Shown here in pieces: positions 24,712 to 47,861 of a stretch of 48,599 nucleotides of DNA. Origin of the DNA: Ignavibacteriota bacterium. Its GTDB lineage: Bacteria > Bacteroidota > Ignavibacteria > Tepidaquicellales > Tepidaquicellaceae. Position numbers and translations under genes: made by a program. How positions within the stretch are numbered: position 1 is the stretch's first letter; each line of letters begins with the position of its first letter. Location: the NCBI GenBank assembly GCA_016218085.1, contig JACREY010000001.1:1-48599 (forward strand). The letters run 5' to 3'. Below the pieces are notes generated by a model. The model was not told the origin of the DNA, made no database searches, and was given only the letters and a program-made list of their open reading frames with translations.

Positions 24712-24768
24712 TGCAAATAAAATTTTGTTAATAAAATTTGAATAAAAATTATGGAAGGTAAAATAGTT

Positions 24769-25296
24769 ATGAAAAGCATAAATAAATTTTTTATAAGTCC
24801 CGTAAAATTCCCGCTCATGTTAATCCTTATAACTGTGCAGGCAGTTTTTTCACAATCCGTTTCAAATAAAAGCGGTGAAGATAATGTTGAGAACGTACAC
24901 TATACTGTTTCTAATGGAAAAATTTTGGTTTCGTACGATCTGCTTGGAAACAGCGATAAATTGTATAATGTATCTTTAACGCTTAGAAAAGCAACTAATA
25001 AAAGTTTTGTTTACATACCAAAAACAGTTTCAGGAGATATTGGAGAAGGTCACTTTGCAGGAAAAGACAAAGGAATAATTTGGGAAATTAAAAATGATTT
25101 TCCGGATGGAATTTCGGGTGATGACTTTTATTTTATTGTTCAGGCAGCAAAAGTTGAGGAAGACACGAATATTCTTATGTGGACTGGAATTGGAATAGCT
25201 GCCGTTGCGGCGGCTGTAACTTATTTAATAACTGGGTCAACTAAGGATACTAATAATCCTAAAAGTTCATTCCCGCCGCCTCCGGGAAGACCGTAA
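24769..25296 (+). CDS. Small secreted/anchored protein of unknown function
   Basis: About 175 aa from ATG 24769, with GGAAGG upstream; a longer start at 24751 adds a charged leader before the signal. The N-terminal signal ends QAVFSQS. The mature part looks like one beta-sandwich (YTVSNGKILVSYDLLG, VSGDIGEGHFAGKDKGIIWEI, DDFYFIVQA). One membrane helix near the end (WTGIGIAAVAAAVTYLI) is followed by a Pro-rich tail. I recognise the pattern of repeated short secreted proteins in Ignavibacteria but no function. It lies between the FN3/T9SS protein (57 bp) and GH18-1 (38 bp), probably in the same operon. Confidence 0.65.
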   Translation: MKSINKFFISPVKFPLMLILITVQAVFSQSVSNKSGEDNVENVHYTVSNGKILVSYDLLGNSDKLYNVSLTLRKATNKSFVYIPKTVSGDIGEGHFAGKDKGIIWEIKNDFPDGISGDDFYFIVQAAKVEEDTNILMWTGIGIAAVAAAVTYLITGSTKDTNNPKSSFPPPPGRP

Positions 25297-25334: not shown

Positions 25335-26441
25335 ATGATATGTTACATGACTACATGCATCATAAAAATAAAATCGTATCCTTTAATAGAATGCATAATG
25401 ATAATTCTAATTTCCGGATGCTTATTTAAAACGAACGCTCAATCAGAAATAAAAATTGGCGCTTATTATGCAGGCTGGATGCAAGGATGGTACAATAACG
25501 GGCGGCTGCCTGCTGAAAAAATAGATTTTAATGTGGTGGACTATGTTATTCATTTTGCACTTTTTCCTAATGCAGACGGAACATTCGATGATCAGGCAAA
25601 CAGCATTAGAGAATCTAATTCCGAAGCTATTGTAAAAGCTGCACACTCTGCAGGTAAGAAGGTTTTAATTTCAGTAGGCGGTTGGAACAGTGCCGATGCT
25701 TTCCGCGGTGCAACAAGCACTTTTAAACTCATAAAATTTGTTTCTAACCTTGTTAACTTTATGAGAGCACGTGGTTACGACGGGATAGATCTGGACTGGG
25801 AACCATTGGAACTATCGGATGCAGGACAATATATTTCATTAACCGCTACACTAAGAGCTATGATGACTGCCTCACAACCCGGTTCATGGTTAACGGCAGC
25901 TAACGGCACACAATGGCAAATCTTCTCACGCATACATCAGTATTTCGATATTATTAATCTAATGACTTACGATTTATCCGGTCCTTGGGGCGGATGGGTT
26001 ACTTGGCATAATGCACCGCTTTATAACGGCGGGTATGAGTTTCCAGGTTCAGGCGGCTTGGTTCCTTCTGCCGCAGGCATGGCAGAAAATTTTATTGCAG
26101 CAGGAGTGCCCGCTAATAAAATAGGCATAGGAATAGATTTCTACGGATATAAATGGCAAGGGGGCAGCGGAACCAGTACCGGAGGTGTTACAGAACCAAG
26201 ACAGAGGTGGACAAACCCGCCTCAATTATTTCCTAATATTCCCTATTACCAGATAATGGAAAATTTCTACAGTCCCGATCTTTATCGCTGGGATACAAGT
26301 GCGGGCGTGCCTTATTTGCAAATTAATACTTCGTGCGATTGGAGCGACAAGTTCATTTCTTATGACGATGAACGAACATGCAAAGCCAAAGTTGAGTATG
26401 CAAAAAAAAAAAGTTGTCCGGAGTTTTTATTTGGGAATTAG
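25335..26441 (+). CDS. GH18-1, 5' part: chitinase-like domain, frame broken at A11
   Basis: 368 aa as read. The signal region ends NAQ (a lipobox-like LISGC also occurs in it). The GH18 barrel has the family strand motifs VLISVGGWNSADAFRG and the catalytic DGIDLDWE (DxxDxDxE intact). The frame ends early: at an A11 tract (26402-26412) it reads KKKSCPEFLFGN and stops, whereas both paralogues continue with an IIWELGGG-type strand. That missing strand (VFIWELGAG) is present in the -1 frame of the following entry. One slippage by -1, or one extra A, would restore a protein of about 794 aa. So this is a frameshifted pair, a programmed slippage site or a sequencing error. Confidence 0.85.
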   Translation: MICYMTTCIIKIKSYPLIECIMIILISGCLFKTNAQSEIKIGAYYAGWMQGWYNNGRLPAEKIDFNVVDYVIHFALFPNADGTFDDQANSIRESNSEAIVKAAHSAGKKVLISVGGWNSADAFRGATSTFKLIKFVSNLVNFMRARGYDGIDLDWEPLELSDAGQYISLTATLRAMMTASQPGSWLTAANGTQWQIFSRIHQYFDIINLMTYDLSGPWGGWVTWHNAPLYNGGYEFPGSGGLVPSAAGMAENFIAAGVPANKIGIGIDFYGYKWQGGSGTSTGGVTEPRQRWTNPPQLFPNIPYYQIMENFYSPDLYRWDTSAGVPYLQINTSCDWSDKFISYDDERTCKAKVEYAKKKSCPEFLFGN

Positions 26442-27718
26442 GTGCGGGAGTTCTTTCAAATTCCGGCAGCCAGCCGCTTATAAACTCTATTAAATCTGCA
26501 ATAAAAGATTCAATAACAATTCCAGCCGCACCACAGCTTTTTTCTCCGTTAAACAAATCTCAAGGAATATTCGATTCGGTTACATTAAGTTGGTTCCCTG
26601 TTGAATTCGCAGATTCTTATAGAATACAACTCGCAGGCGATTCACTTTTTACAGGCATATTGCTTGACTCAACGATAAGCAATTCTACTTCAGTATCAAT
26701 ACACAACATCAACACACCGCGAAAATATTTCTGGCATGTTTGCGCAATAAACGATTCTGGTAAAAGTGAATTTACATCAACGAGAGAATTTTCAACTGCC
26801 GAAGCTCAATTGAATTATCCGCTACTTATAACTCCCCAAAACAATTCAAAGAAAGTTTCTAATAATGTAACTTTCAAATGGTCGCAAATTACAGACGCCG
26901 GTTCTTATGAATTACAAATTGCAAATTCACCAAACATCTGCGATCTTGTTCTTGATACAATAATTGTAAATGATACGAGTTTTATTAAACAGGGATTGGA
27001 ATATAGTAAAGCTTTTTATTGGCGCTTAAGATCAATTCCTAAAAAGAATAGTACATTAGCCGCCGGTAACTTTTCTGAGTGGTATTCGTTTACAACAATA
27101 GGCAGCCCTCCTTCCGTACCCGTTCTTTCATCTCCTACCGATGACGTGAAAAATATTTCGGTCAATACGGTGCTTAGATGGAAAGCCTCTTCCTACGCAG
27201 AAAAATATGAAGTGCGCATTTCAACTGATAGCAGCTTTACACAAATAATAATTGATACAGCAGGTATTGTAAATACATACTTACAAATAAAAAATATGTC
27301 TCCAGCTGCAACATATTACTGGTCGGTAATTGCATTTAATGAAGACGGCAGCAGCGGCTGGTCCGAAACACGGAAATTTACAATTGCAGGCAGTAATGAT
27401 AAATTATCTCAGATTGACGGAGAAGCCGTTGAATTCGAATTATTTCAAAATTATCCTAATCCATTCAATGCTAATACGGTAATCCGCTTCGGTTTGCCTG
27501 ATGAATGTAATGTGCAAATTATTATTATCGATATTCTTGGAAAATATAAAAATGTAGTTCAGGAGTTAAGACTGGACGCGGGAATTTATGAAATTCAACT
27601 TAACGGACTTGGACTTGCAAGCGGTGTATATTTCTATACTATTGTTGCAGGAGTAATTGACCAAGCAGCAGAGCAAAAAGTTTATATGCAAACAAAAAAA
27701 ATGATTATGATCAAATGA
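26414..27718 (+). CDS. GH18-1, 3' part: last GH18 strand, FN3 repeats and T9SS domain
   Basis: 434 aa as an open frame, without a ribosome site of its own and overlapping the 5' part in a different frame. It starts with SGVFIWELGAGVLSNSG, the final GH18 barrel strand, then has three FN3 repeats (about 35-125, 130-230, 232-330) and a T9SS type A domain (NYPNPFNANTVIRFGLP, SGVYFYTI, KKMIMIK). It is the natural C-terminal half of the upstream GH18 product and would give surface export only if joined to the signal peptide of that half. The same GH18 to T9SS order is intact in the paralogues at 31205 and 36683. Confidence 0.8.
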   Translation: MSGVFIWELGAGVLSNSGSQPLINSIKSAIKDSITIPAAPQLFSPLNKSQGIFDSVTLSWFPVEFADSYRIQLAGDSLFTGILLDSTISNSTSVSIHNINTPRKYFWHVCAINDSGKSEFTSTREFSTAEAQLNYPLLITPQNNSKKVSNNVTFKWSQITDAGSYELQIANSPNICDLVLDTIIVNDTSFIKQGLEYSKAFYWRLRSIPKKNSTLAAGNFSEWYSFTTIGSPPSVPVLSSPTDDVKNISVNTVLRWKASSYAEKYEVRISTDSSFTQIIIDTAGIVNTYLQIKNMSPAATYYWSVIAFNEDGSSGWSETRKFTIAGSNDKLSQIDGEAVEFELFQNYPNPFNANTVIRFGLPDECNVQIIIIDILGKYKNVVQELRLDAGIYEIQLNGLGLASGVYFYTIVAGVIDQAAEQKVYMQTKKMIMIK

Positions 27719-27842
27719 TTTTGTAATTAAACGAAAGTGCGCTTTACAGGAAATTTTTCGCAGAGACATATTAAAACAAAAACATCTTTGTAAGTAAGAA
27801 ATATTATGGAAAATTCTTACAGTAAAATAGAGACAAAAAGCC

Positions 27843-28244
27843 ATGTTTAGCGGAGCTATATCGGTAAAAATAAATTCAGAAGTACAAATCCTTGCTGTTC
27901 GATTTAAAGCCCGCTGGCTTGCAGAAAAGGTTGGTTTGGATAAAGGACCGGCAGGAGTTCTATCTGCTATTATTTCTGAAATTGCACGACTCATCGTTAC
28001 GCAGACGAGTTCCGGCAGAATAGATATATTTTCTATTCGTGATAAATCCAGAGTTGGAATTACAGTTTTAGCATTTCTAGAAAATTGTGTAAAAAAAGAA
28101 ATCGAAGAAAAAACCTTTGAGAAGCAAAAAATATTGAAGCGAATGGATTTGAGAACATTAGCTGCAAAACATATAATAGATGAGTTTAAGGTCTATCCCG
28201 GCAACGATAAAGAATTAATGATGCAAATAACCAAATGGGTGTAG
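27843..28244 (+). CDS. Degenerate RsbT-like (GHKL) protein, probably not an ATPase
   Basis: 133 aa, the same length as RsbT at 45766-46167 and aligning end to end with it. Shared features are the ISxxAR helix (ISEIARLI here, ISELARNI there), the closing IDEFKVYPG...KW (MDEFEIFSETG...KKW there) and the GRIDIFSIRDKSRVGI strand pair. The ATP-site elements are lost: the N-box Asn is Leu50, the DKGPGI G1 box is replaced by LAFLENCVKK, and GKGLGLGLPG is replaced by MDLRTLAAKH. An adaptor or decoy that binds RsbT partners without kinase activity is inferred. It precedes a histidine kinase by 58 bp and follows the GH18-1 locus. Confidence 0.75.
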   Translation: MFSGAISVKINSEVQILAVRFKARWLAEKVGLDKGPAGVLSAIISEIARLIVTQTSSGRIDIFSIRDKSRVGITVLAFLENCVKKEIEEKTFEKQKILKRMDLRTLAAKHIIDEFKVYPGNDKELMMQITKWV

Positions 28245-28302
28245 TGTTACTTTTTTCTATTTGTCGAATTGTATGACAAAATTTTATTAATTAAAAAAAT
28301 CA

Positions 28303-30273
28303 ATGACGGTTGAAATGAATCTTCTATTAAGCAAAGATGATATAATGCCTCACCGGAAAAAAACGACAAAGAGTAAGCGTGGGCACTTAAATATTTTACT
28401 TCTTGGGCATGACGACGATGAAGCCGCATTGATTAACTCCTTCCTTAAAGACAAAGGTCTAAAGTTTTCTTTAAAACGTGTTAAGACTTTGAAAGATTTT
28501 ACTTCTGCATTGCACCAATTTAATCCTTCTATAATTATTGCCGACCTTGCCATGTCCAAATTTAACGGACTTAAAGCCCTTATTTATTTAAGGAAGCATG
28601 ATATAAATGTCCCGCTAATTGTTGTAACAAAACAACAAATTGAAAATGCTGCTGTCCGGTGTATGAAAGAAGGAGCTTCTGATTTTATAATTAGTACAAG
28701 TCTTACAAGATTGCCGAATTCAATATTCAACTCTATCAAAGCCGCTGAACGTAAAATGCAAACAAATATTTCAGAGACCCGGTTATTAATGAATTATGAG
28801 TTGTACGAACATTTTTTAAAAATAATGGGTGAAATAGATATTGGACTTTTAATAGTTAACGCCGAGACGAAAGAATTCATTTTTGTTAATGAAACATTTT
28901 GTAAGATATGCAGATATACGGCAGCGGAAATTTTTAACTTTTCTTCTCTATCAAATTTAATAGCGGGAAAGAACAGAGAAAGTTTTGAAGCTGAAATGGC
29001 TAAAATCCTTAAGCATAACAATCCAATAAATATTTTTAATGCTATCATATTAAGAAAAGACAATAAGAAAATTAATGTTGAATTTACAGCCCGGCGTTCT
29101 TTCATGAATAATCGTGTGCTGATCATTTCTATTGTCAAAGAAGTAACCGAAACTTTAAGCAAGAGATTAATGAAAAAACTTATTGATGAAGCTTCGCACG
29201 AAAATGAGAAGCGTTACCGCTCTTTAATAGAAGGCGTAAAAGACTATGCTATTTTTATGCTGGATTCGGATTGGAGAATAATAAGCTGGAATGCCGGTGC
29301 GGAAAGAATTGTTGGGTATAAAGAAAAAGAAATTATACTTAAAAATTTTTCTGTTTTTTTTCCGAAAAATAGCGAAGACAGTATTGACCCTATTGATCTG
29401 CTGAAGAAAGCAAGAAATGATAAACATGTTGAAACTGAACTGCAATTGATAAAGAAAGACGGAAATAAATTTTGGGCATCTTTAACTATCACAAGATTGA
29501 ATGATAAAGATTTGATTGCCGGCACGTTTTCGATTATTATCCGCGATCTTACGAAAAACAAAATATCCGAGGAACTGCTGCATGAACAGGAAACTCAGCT
29601 TCGTTCACTTGCAAAACATCTTCAAGAAGCAAGAGAAGAAGAGAAACTCCGTATAGCAAGGGAACTTCACGACGAGTTTAGTCAAATGCTGACTGTACTT
29701 CGCATGGATTTAACCGTTCTCAGCCGCACAATCTCAAAAACCATTTCGGAACCTATCCAAAGAAATTCTTTGCTGGAAAAAATTTCCTCCATTGCCGAGC
29801 TACTTGAAAGCACGATACGTTCTTCAAGGAGAATAATAACCGAGCTGCGTCCTGCCGTACTTGATGAACTCGGTTTGTACACTGCAATTCAGTGGCAAGC
29901 ACAAGAGTTTGAAACCCGGACAGGCATTAGATGCAAGATCATAAAACTTCATAACGATATAAATTTGGATAAGCATACATCAACAGCAATTTTTCGAATT
30001 TTGCAGGAAGGGCTAACAAATGTTGCAAAACATTCTGCGGCGACAAATGTAGTTATTAATTTAAAAGTTATTGATCACAAACTACTTCTTGAGTTAAAAG
30101 ATAACGGAAGAGGAATAGATAAGAATAAATTAAGGTCCCCGACTTCTACCGGTCTACTGGGAATACGGGAAAGAGTTATGGCGCTAAACGGGAGTTTTGA
30201 AATTCATTCCGATATTGGTGATGGAACGCGGCTCCTTATATATGTACCATACAAACAGGAAGAAAAATTATGA
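28303..30273 (+). CDS. Hybrid-type histidine kinase: REC-PAS-PAS-HisKA_3-HATPase
   Basis: 656 aa, no membrane segment, so cytosolic. An N-terminal receiver (about 28-148) keeps the DDDE acidic cluster and phospho-Asp (D81 in IIIADLAMS), but the conserved Lys is Ser131 (DFIISTSL), so phosphorylation switching may be altered. PAS1 is about 165-280 and PAS2 about 296-420. HisKA_3 has KLRIARELHDEFSQ with phospho-His H456. The HATPase domain ends in DNGRGIDKNKL and GLLGIRERV. This is the NarX/DesK class. Its stop overlaps the regulator start by 4 bp (ATGA). It lacks the RsbU_N domain of the stressosome kinase at 42444, so the nearby RsbT-like protein must act on it differently, if at all. Internal starts such as ATG 28345 are possible. 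Confidence 0.88.
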   Translation: MTVEMNLLLSKDDIMPHRKKTTKSKRGHLNILLLGHDDDEAALINSFLKDKGLKFSLKRVKTLKDFTSALHQFNPSIIIADLAMSKFNGLKALIYLRKHDINVPLIVVTKQQIENAAVRCMKEGASDFIISTSLTRLPNSIFNSIKAAERKMQTNISETRLLMNYELYEHFLKIMGEIDIGLLIVNAETKEFIFVNETFCKICRYTAAEIFNFSSLSNLIAGKNRESFEAEMAKILKHNNPINIFNAIILRKDNKKINVEFTARRSFMNNRVLIISIVKEVTETLSKRLMKKLIDEASHENEKRYRSLIEGVKDYAIFMLDSDWRIISWNAGAERIVGYKEKEIILKNFSVFFPKNSEDSIDPIDLLKKARNDKHVETELQLIKKDGNKFWASLTITRLNDKDLIAGTFSIIIRDLTKNKISEELLHEQETQLRSLAKHLQEAREEEKLRIARELHDEFSQMLTVLRMDLTVLSRTISKTISEPIQRNSLLEKISSIAELLESTIRSSRRIITELRPAVLDELGLYTAIQWQAQEFETRTGIRCKIIKLHNDINLDKHTSTAIFRILQEGLTNVAKHSAATNVVINLKVIDHKLLLELKDNGRGIDKNKLRSPTSTGLLGIRERVMALNGSFEIHSDIGDGTRLLIYVPYKQEEKL

Positions 30274-30902
30274 TTAGAATTATAATTGCCGACGATCATC
30301 CGTTGGTTAGAAAAGGAATAAAAGATGTTTTGGAAGAAGAAAATGATTTTAAGGTAGTTGTAGGCGCGGCTTTTCCTCATGAGGTTCTTGAAGGAATTAG
30401 AGATCATAATCCGGATATTTTAATAACGGATTTATCAATGCCCGGAAGAAGCGGTCTTGATTTAATTAGCGACGTAAAACAACTCTTTCCAAAACTTCCA
30501 ATACTTGTTTTGACAATGCATCCCGAAGAACGCTTTGCAGTACGCGCTTTAAAAGCCGGTGTTGCAGGATATCTTACTAAAGATACCAAGCCGGAAGAAA
30601 TTATTAAAGCTGTAAGACAAATTATCGGCGGCAGAAAATTTATTACACCTTCTATTGCAGAAAAACTTGCTACTGAATTCGATAGAGATCTTGATAAACC
30701 GCCTCATGAAATCCTTTCGGATAGAGAGTACCAGGTTTTCCGTATGATTTCCACCGGCGTAAAAGTTCGAGACATTGCCGATAAACTTTCGCTTAGTATT
30801 AGAACCGTTCACACTTACCGCACAAGAATCATGGAAAAAATGAAAATGAAAACAGATACTGAGCTAACAGTGTACGCTATGGAACACAGGTTGATAGACT
30901 AA
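30270..30902 (+). CDS. NarL/FixJ-type response regulator
   Basis: 210 aa. The receiver (about 1-120) has ADDHPLVRKG, phospho-Asp D54 (LITDLSMPG), VLTMHPEE and the switch Lys in GYLTKDTK. A LuxR/GerE helix-turn-helix follows (about 145-208: LSDREYQVFRMISTGVKVRDIA, SIRTVHTYRTRIMEKM). It is coupled by a 4-bp overlap to the histidine kinase and is surely its partner. Downstream lies a 300-bp gap and then GH18-2, which it could control; no operator was identified. Confidence 0.93.
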   Translation: MIRIIIADDHPLVRKGIKDVLEEENDFKVVVGAAFPHEVLEGIRDHNPDILITDLSMPGRSGLDLISDVKQLFPKLPILVLTMHPEERFAVRALKAGVAGYLTKDTKPEEIIKAVRQIIGGRKFITPSIAEKLATEFDRDLDKPPHEILSDREYQVFRMISTGVKVRDIADKLSLSIRTVHTYRTRIMEKMKMKTDTELTVYAMEHRLID

Positions 30903-31204
30903 CTAAAAGTTTAATAATTTATAACATGCCTAATTAAACCCTTCTAAATTTTCATCCGATTGTTTTCGTATTGATAGTGACACTTATTAAAATATCGAAG
31001 AGTTTCATTCACGATTGGAATCGCAGAAGTGTTTACTTTCGTAACAGTCAAATCATCATACACTATTTTTCCTACAGACCGGATAATTGTATTTAATAAA
31101 AAAAGTTTTTTCCTTATTCTCTCACTCTAAAAAAATACTATAGACGCCTATGAGCATTAACTTACAAAATGCAACTCATTACAATAGAACAAAGGGAAAA
31201 GATA

Positions 31205-32671
31205 GTGGAACAAAGAACTCGTTCTATACTAATTATGCATCTGAGTATATTTATTCTGTTAATTTTTTCATTCGGTTTTTCTTCAGCACAAACAAAATTA
31301 TGGACTACGGCATATTATGCCGGATGGATGCAAGGGCAAAATAACAACGGGCATTTACCCGCGCAGAATATAGATTTCTCTGCCGTTACACACATTATTC
31401 ATTTTGCTGTAGTTCCAAATTCCGACGGTACACTTGATACAGCATCTAACACAATTACTGAATCCAATTCCTTAGAACTAATATCTCTTGCACACAAACA
31501 TGGTGTAAAAGTGCTTATCTCAATAGGCGGTTGGAACAGCGGAGACGGATTCCGCGGCGCTACTTCCCTGCTTAACCTAACTTCTTTTATATCAAATCTT
31601 ATTTCTTTGGTAACCACACGCGGTTATGACGGTATTGATATTGACTGGGAACCATTAGGTTCTGCCGATGCCGTACTTTACATTGCACTCATCACTTCAC
31701 TACGTACCGCTCTAAACACATTAAGTAATGAAACCTTGCTTACCACAGCCAATGGTTCGCAAGCAGAAATAATTTCACAAGTCTTCCCTCTGTTTGATCA
31801 AATAAATTTGATGACTTATGATTTGTCCGGTGCCTGGCCCGGATGGGTTACATGGCATAATTCACCATTGCATAATGGTGGTTATCAATTTCCTTGCTGT
31901 CCCGGATCTTTTTTACCATCAACCGATAGCCATGTTGATGATTTCATTGATGCTGGAATTCCTGCAAGCAAACTCGGTATCGGAATTGATTTTTATGGTT
32001 ATGTTTGGAACGGTGGTAATGGTACAACAACCGGAGGTGTTACTAAACCACGACAGACATGGACAAGCGATCCCTGGGTGCAAGGCAATGTTCCGTATTA
32101 CACTATTATGCAAGATTATTATCAGCCGCAATATTACAACTGGGATGATGCCGCTAAAGCTTCCTATCTTAGTATTGATGACACAGGTTCCACTAACGAT
32201 AAATTCATTTCTTATGATGATGAAAAAACCGTACAAGCAAAGTTTGATTATGCCCGAACAAAGGGAATAGGCGGATTAATAATATGGGAACTTGGCGGTG
32301 GTTACCGAGCCAATCAGTCTGCCGGACAAAAAGATGTTCTTCTTCAAGCTGTAAAAAATGCCCGTGATCGTATTGCCGATGTAGATGATGCAATCCCGGA
32401 AATACCCGCTCTGTTCGCACTGGAACAAAATTATCCGAATCCTTTTAATCCTTCAACAATCATACAATTCTCTTTACCAATTACCGAACATGTTGAACTG
32501 AATATTTACAACATTCTTGGAGAAAAAGTTGCCGGGTTGGTTAATGAAACTTTGAGTGCCGGAACGCATAATATAACCTGGGATGCATCAAATATGCCAA
32601 GCGGAATTTATATTTGCCGGTTCCGTTCGTTCAACAATGTACTAACCAAGAAGATGACTTTGATAAAATAA
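31205..32671 (+). CDS. GH18-2: secreted chitinase-like enzyme with T9SS domain
   Basis: About 488 aa. I chose GTG 31205 because AAAGGG sits 8 nt upstream; ATG 31169 and ATG 31235 are in frame. The signal ends FSFGFSSAQ. The GH18 barrel (about 25-385) carries VLISIGGWNSGDGFRG, catalytic DGIDIDWE, DQINLMTYDLSG (MTYD loop), FYGYVWNGGNG and IIWELGGGY. A T9SS domain follows directly (NYPNPFNPSTIIQFSLP, SGIYICRF, KKMTLIK). GH18 enzymes cleave beta-1,4 GlcNAc polymers by substrate-assisted catalysis. The DNA from about 31967 to 32350 is nearly identical to 37427-37810 in GH18-3. It has a 266-bp gap upstream with no recognisable promoter. Confidence 0.9.
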   Translation: MEQRTRSILIMHLSIFILLIFSFGFSSAQTKLWTTAYYAGWMQGQNNNGHLPAQNIDFSAVTHIIHFAVVPNSDGTLDTASNTITESNSLELISLAHKHGVKVLISIGGWNSGDGFRGATSLLNLTSFISNLISLVTTRGYDGIDIDWEPLGSADAVLYIALITSLRTALNTLSNETLLTTANGSQAEIISQVFPLFDQINLMTYDLSGAWPGWVTWHNSPLHNGGYQFPCCPGSFLPSTDSHVDDFIDAGIPASKLGIGIDFYGYVWNGGNGTTTGGVTKPRQTWTSDPWVQGNVPYYTIMQDYYQPQYYNWDDAAKASYLSIDDTGSTNDKFISYDDEKTVQAKFDYARTKGIGGLIIWELGGGYRANQSAGQKDVLLQAVKNARDRIADVDDAIPEIPALFALEQNYPNPFNPSTIIQFSLPITEHVELNIYNILGEKVAGLVNETLSAGTHNITWDASNMPSGIYICRFRSFNNVLTKKMTLIK

Positions 32672-32727
32672 AAAATCACAGAATGGAACTGGGTATTCAA
32701 TAATTTTTTCTCTTCGATAAAAAATTG

Positions 32728-32814
32728 TGGCGATAATCTTTACACTTCTATAATGAGCTGGGAATCTTTTACACAGTCATAAAAATATAAATGCGAACCT
32801 AAAAACTATCGCCA
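32728..32814. promoter_or_regulatory. Inverted TGGCGATA/TATCGCCA pair upstream of a sigma-54 promoter
   Basis: TGGCGATA (32728-32735) and TATCGCCA (32807-32814) are perfect inverted 8-mers about 80 bp apart, 40-125 bp upstream of the -24 box at 32853. This is a plausible enhancer pair for a sigma-54 activator. The surrounding gap 32672-32972 holds no gene; an AT-rich weak stem just after the GH18-2 stop is not a convincing terminator. Confidence 0.35.
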
Positions 32815-32852
32815 TAATTCTGCCAAAAAAGAACTTTTCTTATAGATATCGG

Positions 32853-32868
32853 TGGCACAACGATTGCA
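32853..32868 (+). promoter_or_regulatory. Sigma-54 promoter of the GT/flippase operon
   Basis: TGGCAC (32853-32858), five bases, TTGCA (32864-32868): a full match to the -24/-12 consensus with correct GG-to-GC spacing. The predicted start near 32879 lies 94 nt before ATG 32973. A sigma-54 activator is encoded in this window at 40015-41007. Confidence 0.8.
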
Positions 32869-32972
32869 CTAACAATCAGTCTATAGCATAAACGTTTTCT
32901 AACAAAAACATTCCGTGAATAAAAAGATGGAAAAACGTTCACGCTCCAAACAACTATATGTAAGGATATCTA

Positions 32973-34412: not shown

Positions 34413-34427
34413 AGACAAATATTATTT

Positions 34428-35915: not shown

Positions 35916-36018
35916 CGCATTTATTTTATCTTACTAACTCACCTTCGCTGAATGTTTAGGTTTATATCCCCGACCTTTAAATCCCCAATTAACAGCTCTT
36001 TTTCAAATAGAATTCCTT

Positions 36019-36038
36019 TTGTAGTACAATTACTACAA
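36019..36038. promoter_or_regulatory. Palindrome GTAGTA-N4-TACTAC (operator-like), copy 1
   Basis: TTGTAGTA (36019-36026), CAAT, TACTACAA (36031-36038): an 8-bp perfect inverted repeat about 185 bp before the pseudo-receiver start. The core GTAGTA-N4-TACTAC recurs at 41055-41070 beside the sigma-54 activator gene. The rest of 35916-36210 shows no gene and no sigma-54 box. Confidence 0.45.
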
Positions 36039-36222
36039 CAAATTCTCTCTTAGTATTATATCTCACCCCTCAATCTTGATACAATAATAACAGCTCAGTT
36101 ACCTACCAATAAGTCTGTAGTTTTTCACACACCTTAAAAATCATTTGTACTATACCGCCCATATAGGTTCATTCTTATTTTCGCATCCATAAAAATAAGC
36201 TAAGGTTCAATTGGAAATTTTA

Positions 36223-36636
36223 ATGAATGTGATAATATGTACCGATTCGCCAATTCTGCTCAACCGTTTAGTAACCATACTTTCGGAGCTGTCGCACTTA
36301 CACGTGGCAGGCGTTACAAATACTTTAGATGAAGCCGAAGCGGAAATCAGAAAAAACAATGCACAGGTTTTTATCACTGCTTTTCACAACATACATAAAA
36401 CGGTTTTCAAAAAACTTAACGGTATTAAAAAAAATAACAGCGGTTTAGTTGTTATTGTGTTAACCAATAACACTGCAGAACAATATTTATCTCAATGGAA
36501 AAAAGCCGGAGCCGATTATGTTTTTGATCAAGCTATGCACTTTACTAAACTGATGGATATTCTTGCCGGTTTTGTTTACAAAAATTTTTTGGAATCTCTT
36601 AGATCGAATTACTACGACGAAAAAAAACCCGTTTAA
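36223..36636 (+). CDS. Pseudo-receiver domain protein
   Basis: About 137 aa. ATG 36223 (MNVIICTDS) is the usual place for a receiver start; an upstream TTG at 36211 with TAAGG is possible. The fold is CheY-like (VIICTDSPILLNRLVTIL, LVVIVLTNNT, KKAGADYVFDQA), but the phospho-acceptor Asp after the third strand is absent (VFITAFHNIHKT), one acidic-cluster Asp is missing and the switch Lys is Gln (FDQA). It therefore cannot work as a normal phosphorylated receiver. No output domain. It lies 46 bp before GH18-3 and is probably co-transcribed, suggesting a regulatory or scaffolding role for that locus; inferred. Confidence 0.7.
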   Translation: MNVIICTDSPILLNRLVTILSELSHLHVAGVTNTLDEAEAEIRKNNAQVFITAFHNIHKTVFKKLNGIKKNNSGLVVIVLTNNTAEQYLSQWKKAGADYVFDQAMHFTKLMDILAGFVYKNFLESLRSNYYDEKKPV

Positions 36637-36682
36637 AATTATGAACACAAATCATTTCACAGTAAAAGAAGGAAAAACACAA

Positions 36683-40014: not shown

Positions 40015-41007
40015 TCAGCCGTCAATTCTATCTAATTTATTATATAACGCTTTTCTACTTACACCTAACAAATTAGCAGCTCTGGATTTATTATTATCAA
40101 CTGCATTCAAAGTTCTAAGAATGATCTCCCTCTCAGCGTTTTTTAAGGAAGTACCTACGGTTATGTTAATCGTATCTTCCTGAAATCTTGAATCGGTGAT
40201 ATTCACAGGCAGGTAGTTCGGGGTTATAATATCTTCCTGACACATGATTACCAAACGTTCGATAACATTTTTTAACTCTCTTACATTCCCGGGCCAATTA
40301 TATCTAAGCATCATATTAAAAGCGGCATCAGAGAATTTTTTGGCATTCTTTTTTTGTTGTTTGCACAGGGATGATAAAAAGTATTCGATTAGAATAGAAA
40401 TATCTTCCTTACGTTCTCTTAAGGGCGGCAGGTGAATTTCAATTACACTGAAACGGTAATACAAATCTTTACGCATTTCACCGCTGTTAATTGCGTCGTC
40501 CATTTTTTTATTTGTTGCGGCAAGCAATCTTACATCAACGAATAATTCTTCTTTACCGCCAAGCCGTCTTAAAGATTTGCTCTCTATTACCCTAAGAAGT
40601 TTTGCCTGAGTCTCGGGAGCCATTTCTGCAATTTCATCAAAGAAGAGAGTACCACCGTTTGCCATTTCGAAGTACCCCATTTTTTTTGATATCGCACCTG
40701 TGAATGCCCCCTGTTCGTGACCGAATAATTCATTTTCAAATACATCTCTTGGAACAGCGGCACAATTAATAGCTATGTACGGCTTGCCGGCTCTGGGACT
40801 TCTGGAATGAATTAACCTGGCAACCACGTCCTTACCCGTGCCGCTTTCACCGGTTATTAAAACTGGAGTTGTTGAATCAGATACAAGATTAATTACAGAA
40901 TAGATTTCGCGGATGCGGGAATTATTACCAATGAAATCAACTTCAGTTTTAGGAAGGGTGTTATTAACACCTGAGATTTCTGATGGCAAGATTATATTGT
41001 CCTTCAT
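40015..41007 (-). CDS. Sigma-54-dependent activator without a receiver domain
   Basis: 330 aa from ATG 41007 (GGA upstream); a longer frame to 41064 places the ATG at the centre of a palindrome and is less likely. The AAA+ domain has all motifs: GESGTGKD (Walker A), ELFGHEQGAFTGA (sigma-54 contact), GGTLFFDEIAEM (Walker B), AATNK, YYRFSVIEIHLPPLRER (sensor/arginine finger) and YNWPGNVREL. A Fis-type helix-turn-helix closes the protein (AANLLGVSRKALYNKL). It lacks the N-terminal sensor domain of NtrC-type proteins. A lone receiver is encoded just upstream (41129-41530) and could control it in trans. It likely activates the sigma-54 promoters at 32853 and 17804. Confidence 0.93.
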   Translation of the reverse strand: MKDNIILPSEISGVNNTLPKTEVDFIGNNSRIREIYSVINLVSDSTTPVLITGESGTGKDVVARLIHSRSPRAGKPYIAINCAAVPRDVFENELFGHEQGAFTGAISKKMGYFEMANGGTLFFDEIAEMAPETQAKLLRVIESKSLRRLGGKEELFVDVRLLAATNKKMDDAINSGEMRKDLYYRFSVIEIHLPPLRERKEDISILIEYFLSSLCKQQKKNAKKFSDAAFNMMLRYNWPGNVRELKNVIERLVIMCQEDIITPNYLPVNITDSRFQEDTINITVGTSLKNAEREIILRTLNAVDNNKSRAANLLGVSRKALYNKLDRIDG

Positions 41008-41053
41008 TATAAATCCATATTTGTTTACCAAATGATAAATGTTGTTTCGTTGC

Positions 41054-41071
41054 GGTAGTAACATTACTACC
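41054..41071. promoter_or_regulatory. Palindrome GTAGTA-N4-TACTAC (operator-like), copy 2
   Basis: GGTAGTAA (41054-41061), CA, TTACTACC (41064-41071): a perfect 8-bp inverted repeat about 50 bp upstream of the preferred activator start at 41007. It has the same 6-bp half-sites and 4-bp core spacing as the copy at 36019-36038, which suggests autoregulation plus control of the GH18-3 locus by one factor. Confidence 0.5.
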
Positions 41072-41128: not shown

Positions 41129-41530
41129 CTAAGCAGTTGTATTTACTAAAATATCGAGCCTCTTTAATATTTTCGGAAGTTCCAGGAAAATAGACGACTT
41201 ATTTATAAACCCGTCAACTGGTAATGATTCAACTATTTCCTTAAATATGTGCTTCTCATGAATAGTAACAATCACTATTTTTATTCCCGGATGCTTTTCT
41301 TTTATCAAATGAGCGGCAGTTAATCCATCCATTTGAGGCATAGAAATATCCATAAAAACAATATCTGGTTTAAGCTTGTTGATTTTTTTTATAGCTTCAA
41401 AACCATCTTTTGCTTCACCCACTATGCTAAGATCTGTTTGATAAGTTAAATATTCCTTATAACCCTGCCGGAAATTATAATTGTCATCAACTATCATGAC
41501 CCTAGGTATATGTGATTTGTTTCTTGACAT
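41129..41530 (-). CDS. Stand-alone CheY-like receiver
   Basis: 133 aa, one complete receiver domain: VMIVDDNYNFRQG (acidic pair), phospho-Asp D61 (IVFMDISMPQMDG), VIVTIHEKH (switch Thr) and the Lys in GFINKSS. No output domain. It ends 64 bp before the 41064 end of the longest activator frame (121 bp before the preferred start) on the same strand. The two look like the separated halves of an NtrC-type regulator, which may work by protein contact. A 7-bp inverted repeat lies just upstream of its start. Confidence 0.9.
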   Translation of the reverse strand: MSRNKSHIPRVMIVDDNYNFRQGYKEYLTYQTDLSIVGEAKDGFEAIKKINKLKPDIVFMDISMPQMDGLTAAHLIKEKHPGIKIVIVTIHEKHIFKEIVESLPVDGFINKSSIFLELPKILKRLDILVNTTA

Positions 41531-41774: not shown

Positions 41775-42440
41775 TCATTGTTTAACCGCTATGAGATTTT
41801 TTTGTATTGCATACTTAACCAAAGATGCGATATCATGAATATCCAGTTTCTTCATTATATTCATTCTATGGCTGTTTACTGTACTGATGCTTAAAAAAAG
41901 TTTTTGAGAAATCTCCTTACTTGTGAGACCTTCGGCAATCAATTGGAATACTTCCATTTCGCGTTTTGTAAGTTTATTATAATTATCGTTTTCTATTAGT
42001 TCTTTATTCCTGGTTCTTTTTATAAGTCCTTCAAGCAGTACTTTTGAAACGGTCGGCGAAAAGAAAGTTTCTTTCATAGCTACAGAACGTACCCCTTCAA
42101 AAATTTCTTTTTTCTCTGCATTCTTTACAACATAACCATCGGCGCCTGCAAGTATCATTTGCTGGATATACTCTTCGTTTTCGTGTATTGTCAGGATTAG
42201 CACCCTGGTATCAGGGTATTTATTCTTAATTATTTTTGTCGCCTCAATACCGTTAAGTCTGGGCATTGAAATGTCTAATACAGCTACATCCGGTTTATGT
42301 TTGGCAATAAGATCCAATGCTTCAACTCCATCGGAAGCTTCACCGACAATTATAAATTGTGGTTCACTTTTGAAAAGAAGCCGAAGCCCGTCTTTAACAA
42401 TAGCATGATCATCTGCGAACAAGATTTTTATTTTTTTCAT
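41775..42440 (-). CDS. NarL/FixJ-type response regulator of the stressosome operon
   Basis: 221 aa. The receiver has FADDHAIVKDGL, phospho-Asp in VAVLDISMPRLNG, LILTIHENEE and Lys in GYVVKNAEKKE. A LuxR helix-turn-helix follows (LTKREMEVFQLIAEGLTSKEIS, SISTVNSHRMNIMKKL). It lies 3 bp after the histidine kinase stop and is its partner. It is the last gene of the R-S-T-X-HK-RR operon and therefore the likely DNA-binding output of the stressosome here, since no sigma-B-type factor, RsbV/RsbW pair or RsbU phosphatase is present in the window. Confidence 0.93.
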   Translation of the reverse strand: MKKIKILFADDHAIVKDGLRLLFKSEPQFIIVGEASDGVEALDLIAKHKPDVAVLDISMPRLNGIEATKIIKNKYPDTRVLILTIHENEEYIQQMILAGADGYVVKNAEKKEIFEGVRSVAMKETFFSPTVSKVLLEGLIKRTRNKELIENDNYNKLTKREMEVFQLIAEGLTSKEISQKLFLSISTVNSHRMNIMKKLDIHDIASLVKYAIQKNLIAVKQ

Positions 42441-42443
42441 TTT

Positions 42444-44987
42444 CTATGTTTTCTTTTTTATAGGGATAGATATTTCTACGCATGTTCCCTTTCCCATGCT
42501 TGATTCAATATGAAAATTACCGCCTAATTGTTCTGTGCGTTCGCGCATATTTATCAAGCCGAAATGCAAGCTTTCGGGTTTAGTACGATCATAATGTAGG
42601 TTGATATCAAAACCCATACCGTCATCTTCGATGCTGAAAAGAATTTCATCTTTGTTTTCGGCTAACATCAACACTATTTTTTTTGCGTCGGAATGTTTGA
42701 TACAATTTGTCAATGCCTCCTGACCAATTCTGTAAAGTGCGATTTCCGTATTCGGATCGTAATGCCTGAATATTGGGATATCGGAGACAAAATTAATTCT
42801 GCCGGAATAAATCTTTTTTGATTCAGTGCACAACAGTTTAAGCGCTGTAACCAACCCAAAATGGTCGAGAGCAGGCGGACGTAAATTGTATGAAATTCCG
42901 CGCACCTCTTTTATAAGACTGTCAATTTCTTTTTTTACGGATCGCAGTTTTGTGCCGTTGATTCTCTTCTTTTCTTTCAGGGTGTCCTCGAAGAAGTTCA
43001 TTTGAAATTTCAAACCGGTCAGCCGTTGACAGACATCATCGTGTAATTCTCTTGAAATCCTAAGCCTCTCTTCTTCATGTGCTTTCTGAATTGAATAAGT
43101 AAAATTTTTCAAATCTTCCGCGCGCTGTTCTGCCTGCGTATTTAATTCCTGAAGTAAAAGTTTTCGTTCCGTTATATCCCAAATGTGGCATTGAATTAAT
43201 CTATCGTTGTTTACAGTATAGGCGATGCTGATAAATTCAATAGTTACTATTTTCTTGTCATTCGTATTGAGTTGGAGCTCGTCATATCTTGCATATCCTT
43301 TCTCTATAATTTCCTTGAATGCCTGTTCGGATTCCGGTATTCCTTTTACAGCTTTTATTTCCCAAAGTTTTTTATCAAAAAAATCTTCTTTAGGGAATCC
43401 TAAAAATTCTATGATGAAGGGATTAATATCATTTATTACTCCTGTTGATGCATCAAGTAATATTAATCCTTCTTTTGAGGTTTCGAATAATCTACGGTAT
43501 TTTATTTCAGAAGATTTGATTGCCTGCTGTGCAAGTTCCTGTTGGGTTATATCCTGACTGGTCCCTATTATTTTTGTTGAGAGTTGATGATCATCAAAAA
43601 CCACCTTCCCCCTTGTGTGTAAAATTCTCTTGGTTTTTTTTTGCTTCAAAATTGCATGTTCGGTTATGAACGGTTTATTGTTGGTTAGAGCATTTTTTAA
43701 GATATCATGAAATCTTTGTCTGTCATCGCTGAAAATATAATTAAGAAATTCGTCCAAGGATATTTCAGGAGCTGATGGATTAAGTCCGAAAATATCACAA
43801 AGTTCTTCCGAGCACCATATTGTGTTAGAATTTACAGTCCATTCCCAGCTTCCAATATGGGCTATCTGCTGAGCTTCGGTAAGCTGCATCTGGCTTTTCT
43901 TTATTTCATCTTCTCTTTTTTTGCGTTCGGTAACATCACGTTTTACGAAAGCAACATGCGTAACCTTGTCACCTTGATTTTTGTACGGATAATAAGCTAT
44001 CTCCATAAATTTTTTACCGAGCAGAGGAAAAGTGAACCATGTTTCATGTTTTATCTCCGAACCGCCAAGGCATTTATCAATATTTTCTTTTATAAGATTA
44101 TTAAAAGTGTCCTCACCAAAAATTTGAGAAATGCTTTTACCTAAAATTTCCGATCTCTCTTTGGACAAAGCCGAGCAATATTCTTCATTGACGGCTTCAT
44201 ATTGATAATTTCTGTTTATAAGACACATTAATTCTTTCGATGCATTTGCAATGAACTCATATTTTCTTCGTATCTCTTCAATATGGCGCCTGTCGGTTTG
44301 ATCGCGTGAATTTACAATTATCCCCGATATGTCGGGATTGTTAAGAAGGTTTTTCCCCACCGATTCCAGAATTTTCCAATCACCGTTTTTGTGCCGGAAG
44401 CGGAATTCTGTTGTTGCTGTAAAACCTGGTATCTCTACCGCTTTATAAAAAAGTTCCAGCACCCTATAAACATCATCGGGATGAATAAATGAGAAAACAT
44501 TCTTGCCTTTAAGCTCATTTTCGGTGTAGCCGAGTATCTTTTCAACAGAGGCGCTGTAGTACATCATATTACCTGCTTTATCAAGAATTGTAACTATATC
44601 AAGTGCGTTTCTAAGTAATGCTTCATAATAATTTACACTTTGTCTAAATGCATCTTCTGCATTTTTTCTTACGTTAATTTCTCTTTTCAGATTTTCAACT
44701 ACGTCTAAAAATCCTTTGAACGTCATGACAAAAGGAGAAAGGTATTCTGTAAAAAAAACTGTCGCTGAAGTTATTATGCTTTCTTTATTACTATTTATGC
44801 TGGGTTCATTTAATATTTTCATAGTAATATCTGAATGCAGGCGAGCAGTATCAAGAATTGATTGACCTCCTCCGAGCGATTTTCTTCCCAAATCGTAAGC
44901 ACGGTTCAAGGCGGTTTCCCCGTTGGTGTCAATATAATTTTTTACCGCATTAATATATTCATTGCAGAATTCTTCACTCAATTCCAT
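42444..44987 (-). CDS. Stressosome-linked histidine kinase: RsbU_N-like domain + four PAS + HisKA_3
   Basis: 847 aa, cytosolic. Residues 1 to about 90 (FCNEYINAVKNYIDTNGET, AYDLGRKSLGGGQSILD, ARLHSDI) match the helical N-terminal domain of the phosphatase RsbU, the part that binds RsbT in Bacillus. Four PAS domains follow (about 130-240, 255-355, 370-490, 500-620). HisKA_3 has RLRISRELHDDVCQ with the phospho-His, and the HATPase has SIEDDGMGFD and GLINMRERTEQLGG. The start overlaps the RsbX stop by 1 bp. The inferred signal path is RsbT released from the stressosome, binding the RsbU_N-like domain, kinase activity, then the NarL-type regulator. Confidence 0.88.
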   Translation of the reverse strand: MELSEEFCNEYINAVKNYIDTNGETALNRAYDLGRKSLGGGQSILDTARLHSDITMKILNEPSINSNKESIITSATVFFTEYLSPFVMTFKGFLDVVENLKREINVRKNAEDAFRQSVNYYEALLRNALDIVTILDKAGNMMYYSASVEKILGYTENELKGKNVFSFIHPDDVYRVLELFYKAVEIPGFTATTEFRFRHKNGDWKILESVGKNLLNNPDISGIIVNSRDQTDRRHIEEIRRKYEFIANASKELMCLINRNYQYEAVNEEYCSALSKERSEILGKSISQIFGEDTFNNLIKENIDKCLGGSEIKHETWFTFPLLGKKFMEIAYYPYKNQGDKVTHVAFVKRDVTERKKREDEIKKSQMQLTEAQQIAHIGSWEWTVNSNTIWCSEELCDIFGLNPSAPEISLDEFLNYIFSDDRQRFHDILKNALTNNKPFITEHAILKQKKTKRILHTRGKVVFDDHQLSTKIIGTSQDITQQELAQQAIKSSEIKYRRLFETSKEGLILLDASTGVINDINPFIIEFLGFPKEDFFDKKLWEIKAVKGIPESEQAFKEIIEKGYARYDELQLNTNDKKIVTIEFISIAYTVNNDRLIQCHIWDITERKLLLQELNTQAEQRAEDLKNFTYSIQKAHEEERLRISRELHDDVCQRLTGLKFQMNFFEDTLKEKKRINGTKLRSVKKEIDSLIKEVRGISYNLRPPALDHFGLVTALKLLCTESKKIYSGRINFVSDIPIFRHYDPNTEIALYRIGQEALTNCIKHSDAKKIVLMLAENKDEILFSIEDDGMGFDINLHYDRTKPESLHFGLINMRERTEQLGGNFHIESSMGKGTCVEISIPIKKKT

Positions 44988-45778
44988 TATCTACTCGGCT
45001 TATTCTTTTCGAGGTACTTTACAACTGTAACTAAAGCATCATCCGATCCTTTTACAAAACGTTTTGTTATATATTCAGCAACATTCTGTGGAGAAATGTT
45101 TACTAATCCTTTTGTGAACGAAAATGAATCATCAGAATAAATTTGATCTCTTGTATAAGTGGGTTCTTCAAGGTCGTTTAAAGGTTCACTTGCTAAATTA
45201 TCATTAGGCCATTCCGGGTAAGAGGGCTGCCATGTATTAAACTGTGAGTCCGCCGCAAAACGTAAAAAATAATCACTTCTAATCCCGTCTGTCGAAAGAA
45301 TTAATAAATCCCCTTTCGAAATTGGAATTATGGTAGCGTATAATTGTGAAAGATTGTATCCCAATACACCTCGGCACATAAAAATACTTTCATAAGCAGG
45401 CTTTGTTTCCGAATCGGCACGTAAAAGTACTCCCTCAACATTACCGATGCTTAACCAGGTAAGAGTATCATCGGTATAATTAATAGAAGCTAAAGCTAGT
45501 ACCACGCCGCGTGTATTTTTTAGTTTTTCATGGCATAGTTTAACTAATTTCATAATAGATAAATCGGCATTGGCTTCCAAAGTATCTACCGCGCACTTTG
45601 CGGCAATTGCAGCTTCATGTCCGTGACCCATTCCATCTACTACACCAACAATTACTTTCTCGGGGAATTCTTTTATTATATATAAATCTCCCGATTCATT
45701 TTGACCGGGAAATATTACAGAAGATGTACTATAAGCAACCCGCGACAGATAAACAGTTTCACCTGTTACATGAGCCAT
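44987..45778 (-). CDS. rsbX: RsbX-like SpoIIE/PP2C phosphatase
   Basis: 263 aa, a single PP2C-type SpoIIE domain: IVGVVDGMGHGHEAAIAAK supplies metal Asp and the DGMGHG signature, VLALASINYTDDTLTW and LSIGNVEGVLLR follow, and LLILSTDGIRSDYF supplies the DG motif. RsbX dephosphorylates RsbS and RsbR to reset the stressosome. The second metal Asp near the C-terminus is less obvious: the tail (YSDDSFSFTKGL..DDALVTVVKYL) has DDALV as the candidate. It overlaps RsbT by 13 bp. Confidence 0.88.
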   Translation of the reverse strand: MAHVTGETVYLSRVAYSTSSVIFPGQNESGDLYIIKEFPEKVIVGVVDGMGHGHEAAIAAKCAVDTLEANADLSIMKLVKLCHEKLKNTRGVVLALASINYTDDTLTWLSIGNVEGVLLRADSETKPAYESIFMCRGVLGYNLSQLYATIIPISKGDLLILSTDGIRSDYFLRFAADSQFNTWQPSYPEWPNDNLASEPLNDLEEPTYTRDQIYSDDSFSFTKGLVNISPQNVAEYITKRFVKGSDDALVTVVKYLEKNKPSR

Positions 45779-46167
45779 TTTTTTACCGATACCCTTGTGC
45801 CTTTTCCGGTTTCCGAAAAGATTTCGAATTCGTCCATTAGCCTTCGAACCCCTGGTAATCCTAAGCCTAAACCTTTACCGGTTGAATAGCCATCTTGCAT
45901 TGCAAGAAAAATATCCGGAATTCCTGGTCCTTTATCTACAGCTGTAATTACAATGCCGACTTTTTTACCGTGTCTGATTGTTTCAATAATCATATCCCCG
46001 TGTTTTGCGAAAATAATAATATTTCTTGCTAGTTCTGAAATTACTGTGGCAATTATAGTTAGGTCTGTCAGTGAAAAATCTAATTCCTTTCCTACTCTTC
46101 TACCAAGCTCCCTAGCGACAATAATATCGGAATCTGAAGTAATTGCAATAGTGGACCCGCCATCCAT
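45766..46167 (-). CDS. rsbT: RsbT serine/threonine kinase (GHKL)
   Basis: 133 aa with an intact Bergerat fold: N-box ISELARNI, G1 AVDKGPGIPD, G2 GKGLGLGLPGVRRLMDEF and closing GKGTRVSVKKW. RsbT phosphorylates RsbS and RsbR under stress, leaves the complex and activates a partner carrying an RsbU_N domain. Here that partner is probably the histidine kinase at 42444. It lies 2 bp after RsbS. A paralogue without ATP-site motifs is at 27843. Confidence 0.93.
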   Translation of the reverse strand: MDGGSTIAITSDSDIIVARELGRRVGKELDFSLTDLTIIATVISELARNIIIFAKHGDMIIETIRHGKKVGIVITAVDKGPGIPDIFLAMQDGYSTGKGLGLGLPGVRRLMDEFEIFSETGKGTRVSVKKWLM

Positions 46168-46169: not shown

Positions 46170-46538
46170 CTATATTTTCCTTTTCTTATTGTTACTTGTG
46201 GTAAGAAGAGCAAGACCTTCTTCTAAGTCTAAAGCCGTGGAGATTCCTTCAAGGGTTAGACCAAGTTGAACCATAGTAAATGCAACTTCGGGCTGTATAC
46301 CGCAAATAACCGTATCAGCACCTCGTAACTTTACCATGTGAACAAGGGATCTCAGTGTGCGTGTAGCAAAGGAATCCATTATATCCAGAGCGGTTACATC
46401 AATAATTACTCCTTTGGAACGGTGTTTGCCGACCTGTTCAACAAGGGCGTAATGAAGCTTCAGCAGATCTTCATCTGTAAGAGCTGCTTGTATAGTAGCT
46501 ATTAGATAATCGCTTTGCTTTAATATAGGTACTTCCAC
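46170..46538 (-). CDS. rsbS: RsbS STAS scaffold protein
   Basis: 122 aa, one STAS domain. It contains GVIIDVTALDIMDSFATRTL with the phosphorylatable Ser (DSFATR) at the start of the recognition helix, and ADTVICGIQPEVAFTMVQLG. RsbS and RsbR form the core of the megadalton stressosome. The gene starts 3 bp after the RsbR stop. Confidence 0.93.
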   Translation of the reverse strand: MEVPILKQSDYLIATIQAALTDEDLLKLHYALVEQVGKHRSKGVIIDVTALDIMDSFATRTLRSLVHMVKLRGADTVICGIQPEVAFTMVQLGLTLEGISTALDLEEGLALLTTSNNKKRKI

Positions 46539-46541: not shown

Positions 46542-47459
46542 TTATGCTCCTGCTTGATCTAAAGACAGCTCACTTACAGGAATAACTTTATAACCCAATT
46601 GTCTCTCCGCTTGTTCAATACCACCCTGTAAGTCACCAACTGTATTCATCTTAGTTAAGTCGACTCCTATTGTAACCAATGTTTGGGCAATTTCAGGCGA
46701 TAGACCGGTTACGATAACTGAAGCACCGAGAAGACGTGATGCTTCAACCGTCTGAACCAGGTGGTTTGCTACATTGGAATCCATTGCCGCAACACCGGTA
46801 ATATCTATAACAACAAGTTTAGCACGATTAGTTCTAATTCCTCTAAGCAGTTGCTCAGTTAACTGCCTTGCCCGTTGAGGGTCAATTACGCCAATTATAG
46901 GAAGAATAAGCAATCGGTCACGCACCTGAAGAACTGGAGTAGAAAGTTCACGGATAGCTTCCTGTTGTTGTCTGATGGTTCTTTCGCGTTCCTGAACGAA
47001 ACTTACTGCAACAGTATTAGCAATTCTGTTTGCCGCGGGTTCATAAGCATCAAGTATTCTGTTAAGCAATCCGAAATCATGCTGGTACTTGGCAAATAAT
47101 GAACGGGCAAGTACGTCACGAAGCAGAAGTACAATTCCAATAACTTCGTGAGTTTCAACTCCACGTGGAATAATTCTTTCCGATAGATCACGCGCATATG
47201 TTTGCAATGCTTCAAAAGTTCCAGACTGAAGCGCATCTACGTAGCTATCATATATTGTTGTTGCTTCAGCAAAAATTTCATCCTGACTCATTGCTGTTAA
47301 GAGTTTTGCTTCAGTAATACGCCGCGCCCACTCCTGCCTCAATTGAGTTCTACTTTCGCGAAGGTGTGCTACTAATTGACGTAGTAACTCACTTCTGGAT
47401 TCGTCCGAATTATTAAGATTTGCTTCTAGCGAAAGGTTTCTTCTTTCTGTTTTTGCCAT
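46542..47459 (-). CDS. rsbR: RsbR sensor/scaffold protein of the stressosome
   Basis: About 305 aa. ATG 47459 (MAKTERRNL) is chosen because GAGGAAG directly precedes it; a longer frame to 47528 is less likely. The N-terminal half (about 25-180) is helical with QEWARRITEAKLL, the RsbRD-type turret sensor rather than a heme globin, and no PAS is visible. The C-terminal STAS domain (about 190-295) has LVVIDITGVAAMDSNVANHL (phosphosite Ser) and VIVTGLSPEIAQTLVTIG (second phosphosite Thr). The stimulus is unknown. It is the first gene of the R-S-T-X-HK-RR operon. No promoter motif was recognised upstream. Confidence 0.9.
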   Translation of the reverse strand: MAKTERRNLSLEANLNNSDESRSELLRQLVAHLRESRTQLRQEWARRITEAKLLTAMSQDEIFAEATTIYDSYVDALQSGTFEALQTYARDLSERIIPRGVETHEVIGIVLLLRDVLARSLFAKYQHDFGLLNRILDAYEPAANRIANTVAVSFVQERERTIRQQQEAIRELSTPVLQVRDRLLILPIIGVIDPQRARQLTEQLLRGIRTNRAKLVVIDITGVAAMDSNVANHLVQTVEASRLLGASVIVTGLSPEIAQTLVTIGVDLTKMNTVGDLQGGIEQAERQLGYKVIPVSELSLDQAGA

Positions 47460-47861
47460 TTCTTCCTCTCTGATTTTATTAAAGTTCTTCTTTTGAATTC
47501 TAATATTAATTTTTCCATAAGCTGACAAAAAATCTATGATCGGAATCCACTTTAATTTTGTGTGTAAAGATTACGCCAGCATTATTATTATATCAATCGA
47601 AAGAAATGTGTATTTTTTTATAAATACTTCATATTAAAGCTTCTCATTAGTTTATACTAATTAATCATGGGTAGAAAGCCAATCTTAGTTAAGAGTCACA
47701 TTAATGAATCTATTTGAAAAAAGGTTATTTCATCATAGGTACAACAAACGTCTAGCATTTTCTTGTTGATGTTATTCTAGTTCAACAGCAAACAAATTTT
47801 TTGTTTTTGATTAAGATAGATTTCCAAAATTACAGAGTTGATAACATCTAGTGTCCAAGTG
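47460..47861. other. Gene-free AT-rich stretch upstream of the stressosome operon
   Basis: I see no coding frame, sigma-54 box or RNA gene here in either direction. It must contain the promoter of the minus-strand stressosome operon, but no -10/-35 pair stands out. Together with the hairpin at 47862 and the area to 48039, it makes about 580 bp of non-coding sequence between the operon and the integrase relic. Confidence 0.6.

Follow-up and report, generated by a model that had tools for sequence, protein, structure and literature searches.

Among the closest described systems are the histidine kinases with an RsbU_N domain that are encoded downstream of RsbRSTX modules and pass the output of the stressosome to a response regulator (PMC9237108; PMC12143880). 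For B. subtilis RsbT, residues R19, R23, and N24 have been linked to the binding of RsbU, and the predicted complex shows them buried between the two proteins (PMC12143880). Outside Bacillus, stressosomes often adjoin two-component systems, and most of the adjoining signaling proteins in the surveyed set have no RsbU_N; the route from the stressosome to such kinases has been left open (PMC9237108). A search of open-access papers turned up no description of a degenerate RsbT, an RsbT paralog, or a histidine kinase carrying an RsbT domain. The analysis reported here suggests that, in some soil and groundwater Ignavibacteria, the second RsbT copy connects the stress-sensing complex with an adjacent sensor kinase purely by binding.

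The DNA analyzed (hereafter, the window) is an entire contig of 48,599 bases (C17) from an assembly assigned to family f1. Its main stressosome module is of the described kind, with an RsbU_N kinase and a response regulator, and is accompanied by two further regulatory genes:

40015..41064, minus strand: NtrC-like AAA+/HTH regulator
41129..41530, minus strand: stand-alone REC protein adjoining the stressosome operon
41775..42440, minus strand: NarL-type response regulator of the main module
42444..44987, minus strand: RsbU_N-PAS(x4)-HisKA_3-HATPase kinase (P0005; RsbU_N by Pfam), the expected target of the true RsbT
44987..45778, minus strand: RsbX-type PP2C feedback phosphatase
45766..46167, minus strand: true RsbT switch kinase (P0002), 133 aa, all ATP motifs present
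46170..46538, minus strand: RsbS (STAS), stressosome scaffold, matching STAS proteins of other RsbRST operons
46542..47528, minus strand: RsbR (C-terminal STAS), stressosome scaffold/sensor

The second module, together with a gene upstream of it, lies on the opposite strand:

24751..25296, plus strand: secreted protein, 181 aa
27843..28244, plus strand: pseudo-RsbT (P0001), 133 aa, predicted RsbT/SpoIIAB-like fold lacking the N-box Asn, DxGPGI, and GxGxGL, with R20/R24 kept and W25 gained
28303..30273, plus strand: sensor histidine kinase (P0003), 656 aa, degenerate REC-PAS-PAS-HisKA_3-HATPase_c, kinase core intact
30270..30902, plus strand: NarL/FixJ-type response regulator, 210 aa

The pseudo-RsbT gene is separated from the kinase gene by 58 bp, and the end of the latter overlaps the regulator gene by 4 bp. 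The three genes are as described in the initial annotation, which also saw in them a mirror of the RsbT-RsbX-HK-RR series of the main module. The parallel holds for RsbT, kinase, and regulator; it does not extend to RsbR, RsbS, and RsbX, which are missing from the second module, nor to the RsbU_N domain, which a Pfam search did not find in P0003. Residues ~28–150 of this kinase form a receiver devoid of the acidic pair and the conserved Lys, i.e., a pseudo-receiver; in the corresponding domain of the G540 kinase, the phospho-acceptor position is occupied by Asn.

The 133-aa protein is an RsbT paralog by descent. Its alignment with residues 1–132 of the true RsbT of the window is gapless, with 29/132 identical (22%) and 60/132 positive (45%) positions (BLASTP, 37 bits, E 7e-9), in line with the end-to-end similarity noted initially. 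Chance similarity was ruled out for two reasons. Firstly, the local score of 105 was not approached in 20,000 shuffles (maximum 67). Secondly, the profile of the pseudo-RsbT group matches true RsbTs with E ~1e-20 to 1e-26. P0001 has no Pfam or NCBIfam match and does not reach the gathering cut-offs of Pfam HATPase_c and HATPase_c_2 (best group member, E 0.022), and a search of PDB sequences with a five-member pseudo-RsbT profile gave no match. The AlphaFold2 model has the SpoIIAB/RsbW-type GHKL fold (pLDDT 80.8; below 50 in the lid stretch 86–99); among solved structures it comes closest to RsbW (6m37; Foldseek E 2.8e-6, Z 13.4) and SpoIIAB (1th8; Z 12.7).

The loss of the ATP-binding motifs, also proposed from the single sequence, was borne out by alignment with 22 true RsbTs, all of which keep the N-box Asn, DxGPGI, and, with small variations, the second Gly box. 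P0001 has L50 for the N-box Asn, LENCVK for DKGPGI, and RMDLRTLA for GLGLGLPG. Neither Gly box is kept in any of the six pseudo-RsbTs identified, and the N-box Glu/Asn pair is broken in five of them in different ways: Asn is replaced by Leu in the window and MnB_16 and by Lys in G518 and G551, while in G528 Glu has become Gly. In G540 the loss of the site is less complete, since the Asn and the catalytic Glu are still there. Judging from these motifs, the pseudo-RsbTs are predicted to have neither ATP binding nor kinase activity.

At first the gene gave the impression of being unique to one genome, which is explained by the provenance of the contig. The window is 98.4–99% identical at the DNA level to Stygiobacter sp. 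RIFOXYC2_FULL_38_25 (G090, family f10; Stygiobacter is placed in Melioribacteraceae by NCBI), and its tetranucleotide composition correlates with that of the other contigs of its own assembly at a mean of 0.33–0.52, compared with 0.68–0.78 among those contigs. Most likely, the contig is misbinned and its true host is Stygiobacter-like; hence the absence of the pseudo-RsbT from f1 relatives carries no weight.

Intact relatives were found in five further species from two families of Ignavibacteria. Melioribacter sp. MnB_16, of a different genus, has an ortholog with 77% identity, and its gene order matches that of the window (GH18 gene, pseudo-RsbT, kinase, regulator, GH18 gene); a class-wide profile search with follow-up yielded four more in family f8 (G518, G551, G540, G528). 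Other weak RsbT-like matches in the class, e.g., in G487 and G464, proved to be RsbW/SpoIIAB-like proteins with the usual motifs, among those inspected, and plasmid or viral spread was rejected, as a search of plasmids and viral contigs returned no match. In the tree, the six pseudo-RsbTs group together (98/98), nested inside the RsbTs of RsbU_N-type modules (96/96). The f8 members hold this position when the window pair is omitted (90); the window pair without them is weakly placed because of its very long branch. The case for a single origin thus draws in addition on W25, on the kinase pairing described below, and on sequence similarity, P0001 being 31% identical to the G518 pseudo-RsbT and 22% to the RsbT of its own window.

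The initial proposal to look for the degenerate form beside kinase genes of other Ignavibacteria was fruitful: all six genes lie directly upstream, and on the same strand, of a kinase from a single clade (100/100), followed in G540 and G528 by a NarL regulator. Two kinases of this clade (G426 and G518:C210) have no pseudo-RsbT gene, hence the protein is not indispensable. The N-terminal sensor part of the kinases varies, with only one PAS in G518 and G551, so that a shared docking site must fall in the last PAS, the linker, or the DHp domain.

Every genome with a pseudo-RsbT also encodes a true RsbRST stressosome, in several cases 2–18 kb away. Two families were covered completely in the search (79 and 13 genomes). 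Nine of these 92 genomes have a stressosome RsbT, and the six with a pseudo-RsbT all belong to these nine (hypergeometric 1e-7, uncorrected for ancestry, the related genomes not being independent). In G518 and G551, the pseudo-RsbT-kinase pair is located ~2 kb from the RsbRSTX-[RsbU_N kinase]-RR operon, separated from it by a homolog of the 40015–41064 gene and flanked on the other side by a homolog (180 aa) of the 24751–25296 gene. The latter also precedes the pair in MnB_16, indicating a conserved neighborhood, and is found upstream of the kinase in G426 and G518:C210 as well.

The interval 25335–39946 of the window contains three GH18 genes around two-component genes, with C-terminal sorting-like tails, and the regulated process may be the use of chitin or a related glycan. 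One GH18 gene is split (ORFs 25335–26441 and 26414–27718), the reading frame changing at an A11 run (26400–26412, GC-A11-GTTGTCC); reading in the -1 frame gives YAKKKLSGVFIWELGAG, which matches intact GH18 paralogs. Both the A11 run and the split recur in MnB_16 (~81% DNA identity) and RIFOXYC2, and this conserved arrangement looks like a programmed frameshift or transcriptional slippage.

Elsewhere in the class, RsbT-like domains are physically joined to kinases. The stressosome operons of G239, G511, G597, G718, and G660 encode fusions of RsbT-like domains with RsbX and with the N-terminus of a histidine kinase, and in G239 the ATP motifs of the fused domain are intact. In G480, the first 131 residues of a kinase of the stressosome operon (L100, 7270–8871) form an RsbT-like domain whose ATP motifs were lost independently; this domain is 25% identical to P0001 (E 1e-5), and its model is closest to SpoIIAB/RsbW. 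Like the pseudo-RsbT, these proteins tie an RsbT-like domain to a kinase within an RsbRST setting, but they are fused rather than separate and belong to other branches of the tree. Three RsbT-like domains per operon were observed at L099 and L152–L155: a free RsbT, one fused to RsbX, and a third joined to a large signaling protein (a histidine kinase or another).

We propose, with a probability of about one-half, that the pseudo-RsbT is an RsbT reduced to binding, which couples the adjacent second kinase to the stressosome or to a stressosome partner. Beyond the sequence and the predicted fold, we infer the absence of ATP binding, the docking partners, and the direction of control. A duplicated RsbT would have lost ATP binding and kinase activity, kept its fold and the docking surface of helix 1, and become a binding-only subunit of the PAS-HisKA_3 kinase. 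Its RsbT-type surface might dock on the stressosome (the STAS domains of RsbS/RsbR); the alternative site would be the final PAS of the kinase together with the helical linker. The state of the stressosome would then be coupled to a second HK-NarL branch, parallel to the branch leading from the true RsbT to the RsbU_N kinase. As the pseudo-RsbT would be unable to phosphorylate RsbS and RsbR, it could not bring about its own release, which might depend on phosphorylation by the true RsbT; otherwise it may be a permanent kinase subunit. This coupling fits best the combination of kinase pairing, co-occurrence with the stressosome, a presumed docking helix that is retained, a missing ATP site, and kinase fusions in other genomes. 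What counts against it is that the proposed partner has no RsbU_N, i.e., the known docking site of RsbT is missing.

The surface of helix 1 bears on both this reading and its chief rival. R20 is kept in all six pseudo-RsbTs, and R24 is Arg or Lys in all six; position 25 is Trp in 6/6, compared with 0/22 true RsbTs. These three positions are presumably equivalent to R19, R23, and N24 of B. subtilis RsbT, an equation that we base on identical spacing and on the B. subtilis sequence. Since W25 occupies the exact spot where specificity would change, the protein may no longer belong to the stressosome network at all: it would bind its own kinase only, e.g., at the PAS and linker, in response to some other signal, and the link to the stressosome would be historical. 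Unlikely as we consider this, the pairing with the kinase is indeed stricter than physical linkage to the stressosome operon, the G540 and G528 pairs being found in other neighborhoods; W25 is a shared new residue at an interface position; and a PAS-linker interface has been predicted for RsbQ on RsbP (PMC12143880). All six genomes, however, still have a true stressosome, and the arginines of helix 1 have been kept.

The same arginines, presumably corresponding to RsbU contacts, would suit a decoy, that is, a free dead RsbT that competes with the true one for RsbS/RsbR or for RsbU_N of the first kinase and so dampens that branch. A precedent exists in RsbW3 of M. smegmatis, which has no kinase activity and antagonizes RsbW1, probably via a heterodimer (PMC7693655). 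We regard this explanation as distinctly improbable: the gene is co-inherited with the second kinase and not with the operon of the RsbU_N kinase, and the invariant Trp next to the interface arginine points to changed rather than copied specificity. A bridge to the second kinase is favored over a decoy by the operon-like arrangement and joint inheritance with the kinase (6/6), and by the RsbT-like kinase fusions, one of them degenerate, in other stressosome operons.

The gene is under purifying selection, as the initial annotation had supposed. In the window/MnB_16 comparison, dN/dS (Nei-Gojobori, own script) is 0.19 for the pseudo-RsbT, 0.17 for its kinase, 0.04 for the regulator, and 0.08 for the true RsbT; for the G518/G551 pseudo-RsbTs it is 0.09. 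Simulated neutral drift with 81 differences gives an expected amino acid identity of ~60% (maximum 69%), against the observed 77%. Instead of absence or random decay in relatives, which would have told against a function, we found six intact frames and low dN/dS, and together with the simulation these rule out a pseudogene. That a functionless, decaying paralog has persisted by chance is very improbable, for its patchy presence (2/79 and 4/13 genomes of the two families) and its loss beside two same-clade kinases are outweighed by the open frame in six species, dN/dS of 0.09–0.19, substitutions by codon position of 23/13/45 (p 5e-5), and 18 alignment columns invariant across the six species.

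If the coupling reading is extended to the G480 fusion, RsbT proteins and domains with a dead ATP site could constitute a separate output route of Gram-negative stressosomes, in which stand-alone adaptors or hidden N-terminal kinase domains would let STAS scaffolds control histidine kinases devoid of RsbU_N. We put this forward tentatively; if true, it would explain how RsbRSTX modules signal to kinases of this type. A conserved RsbT without an ATP site, tied to a kinase without RsbU_N, is a concrete and testable candidate for the missing link. As a pseudokinase-like adaptor within a partner-switching network, it would also allow binding and phosphorylation to be studied separately.

Compared with the RsbTs of B. 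subtilis and of Gram-negative RsbRST(X) modules, the pseudo-RsbT agrees in length, colinear alignment, fold, the Arg pair of helix 1, the C-terminal DEF...KW, and the stressosome as genomic company; it differs in having no DxGPGI or GxGxGL lid, in its pairing with a kinase that has no RsbU_N, and in the common W25. The anti-sigma kinases RsbW and SpoIIAB provide its best fold matches, but P0001 has no ATP motifs and no gene for a sigma factor or RsbV partner nearby, and the sequence tree groups it with RsbT. RsbW3 of M. smegmatis resembles the proposed adaptor as a GHKL-family regulator that has no kinase activity and acts by binding (PMC7693655), while belonging to the RsbW lineage, antagonizing an anti-sigma factor, and being unpaired with a histidine kinase. 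Finally, the RsbU_N kinases downstream of RsbRSTX, exemplified in the window by the first module, share with the second module an output through a histidine kinase and response regulator, and are set apart from the kinase beside the pseudo-RsbT by the RsbU_N domain itself.
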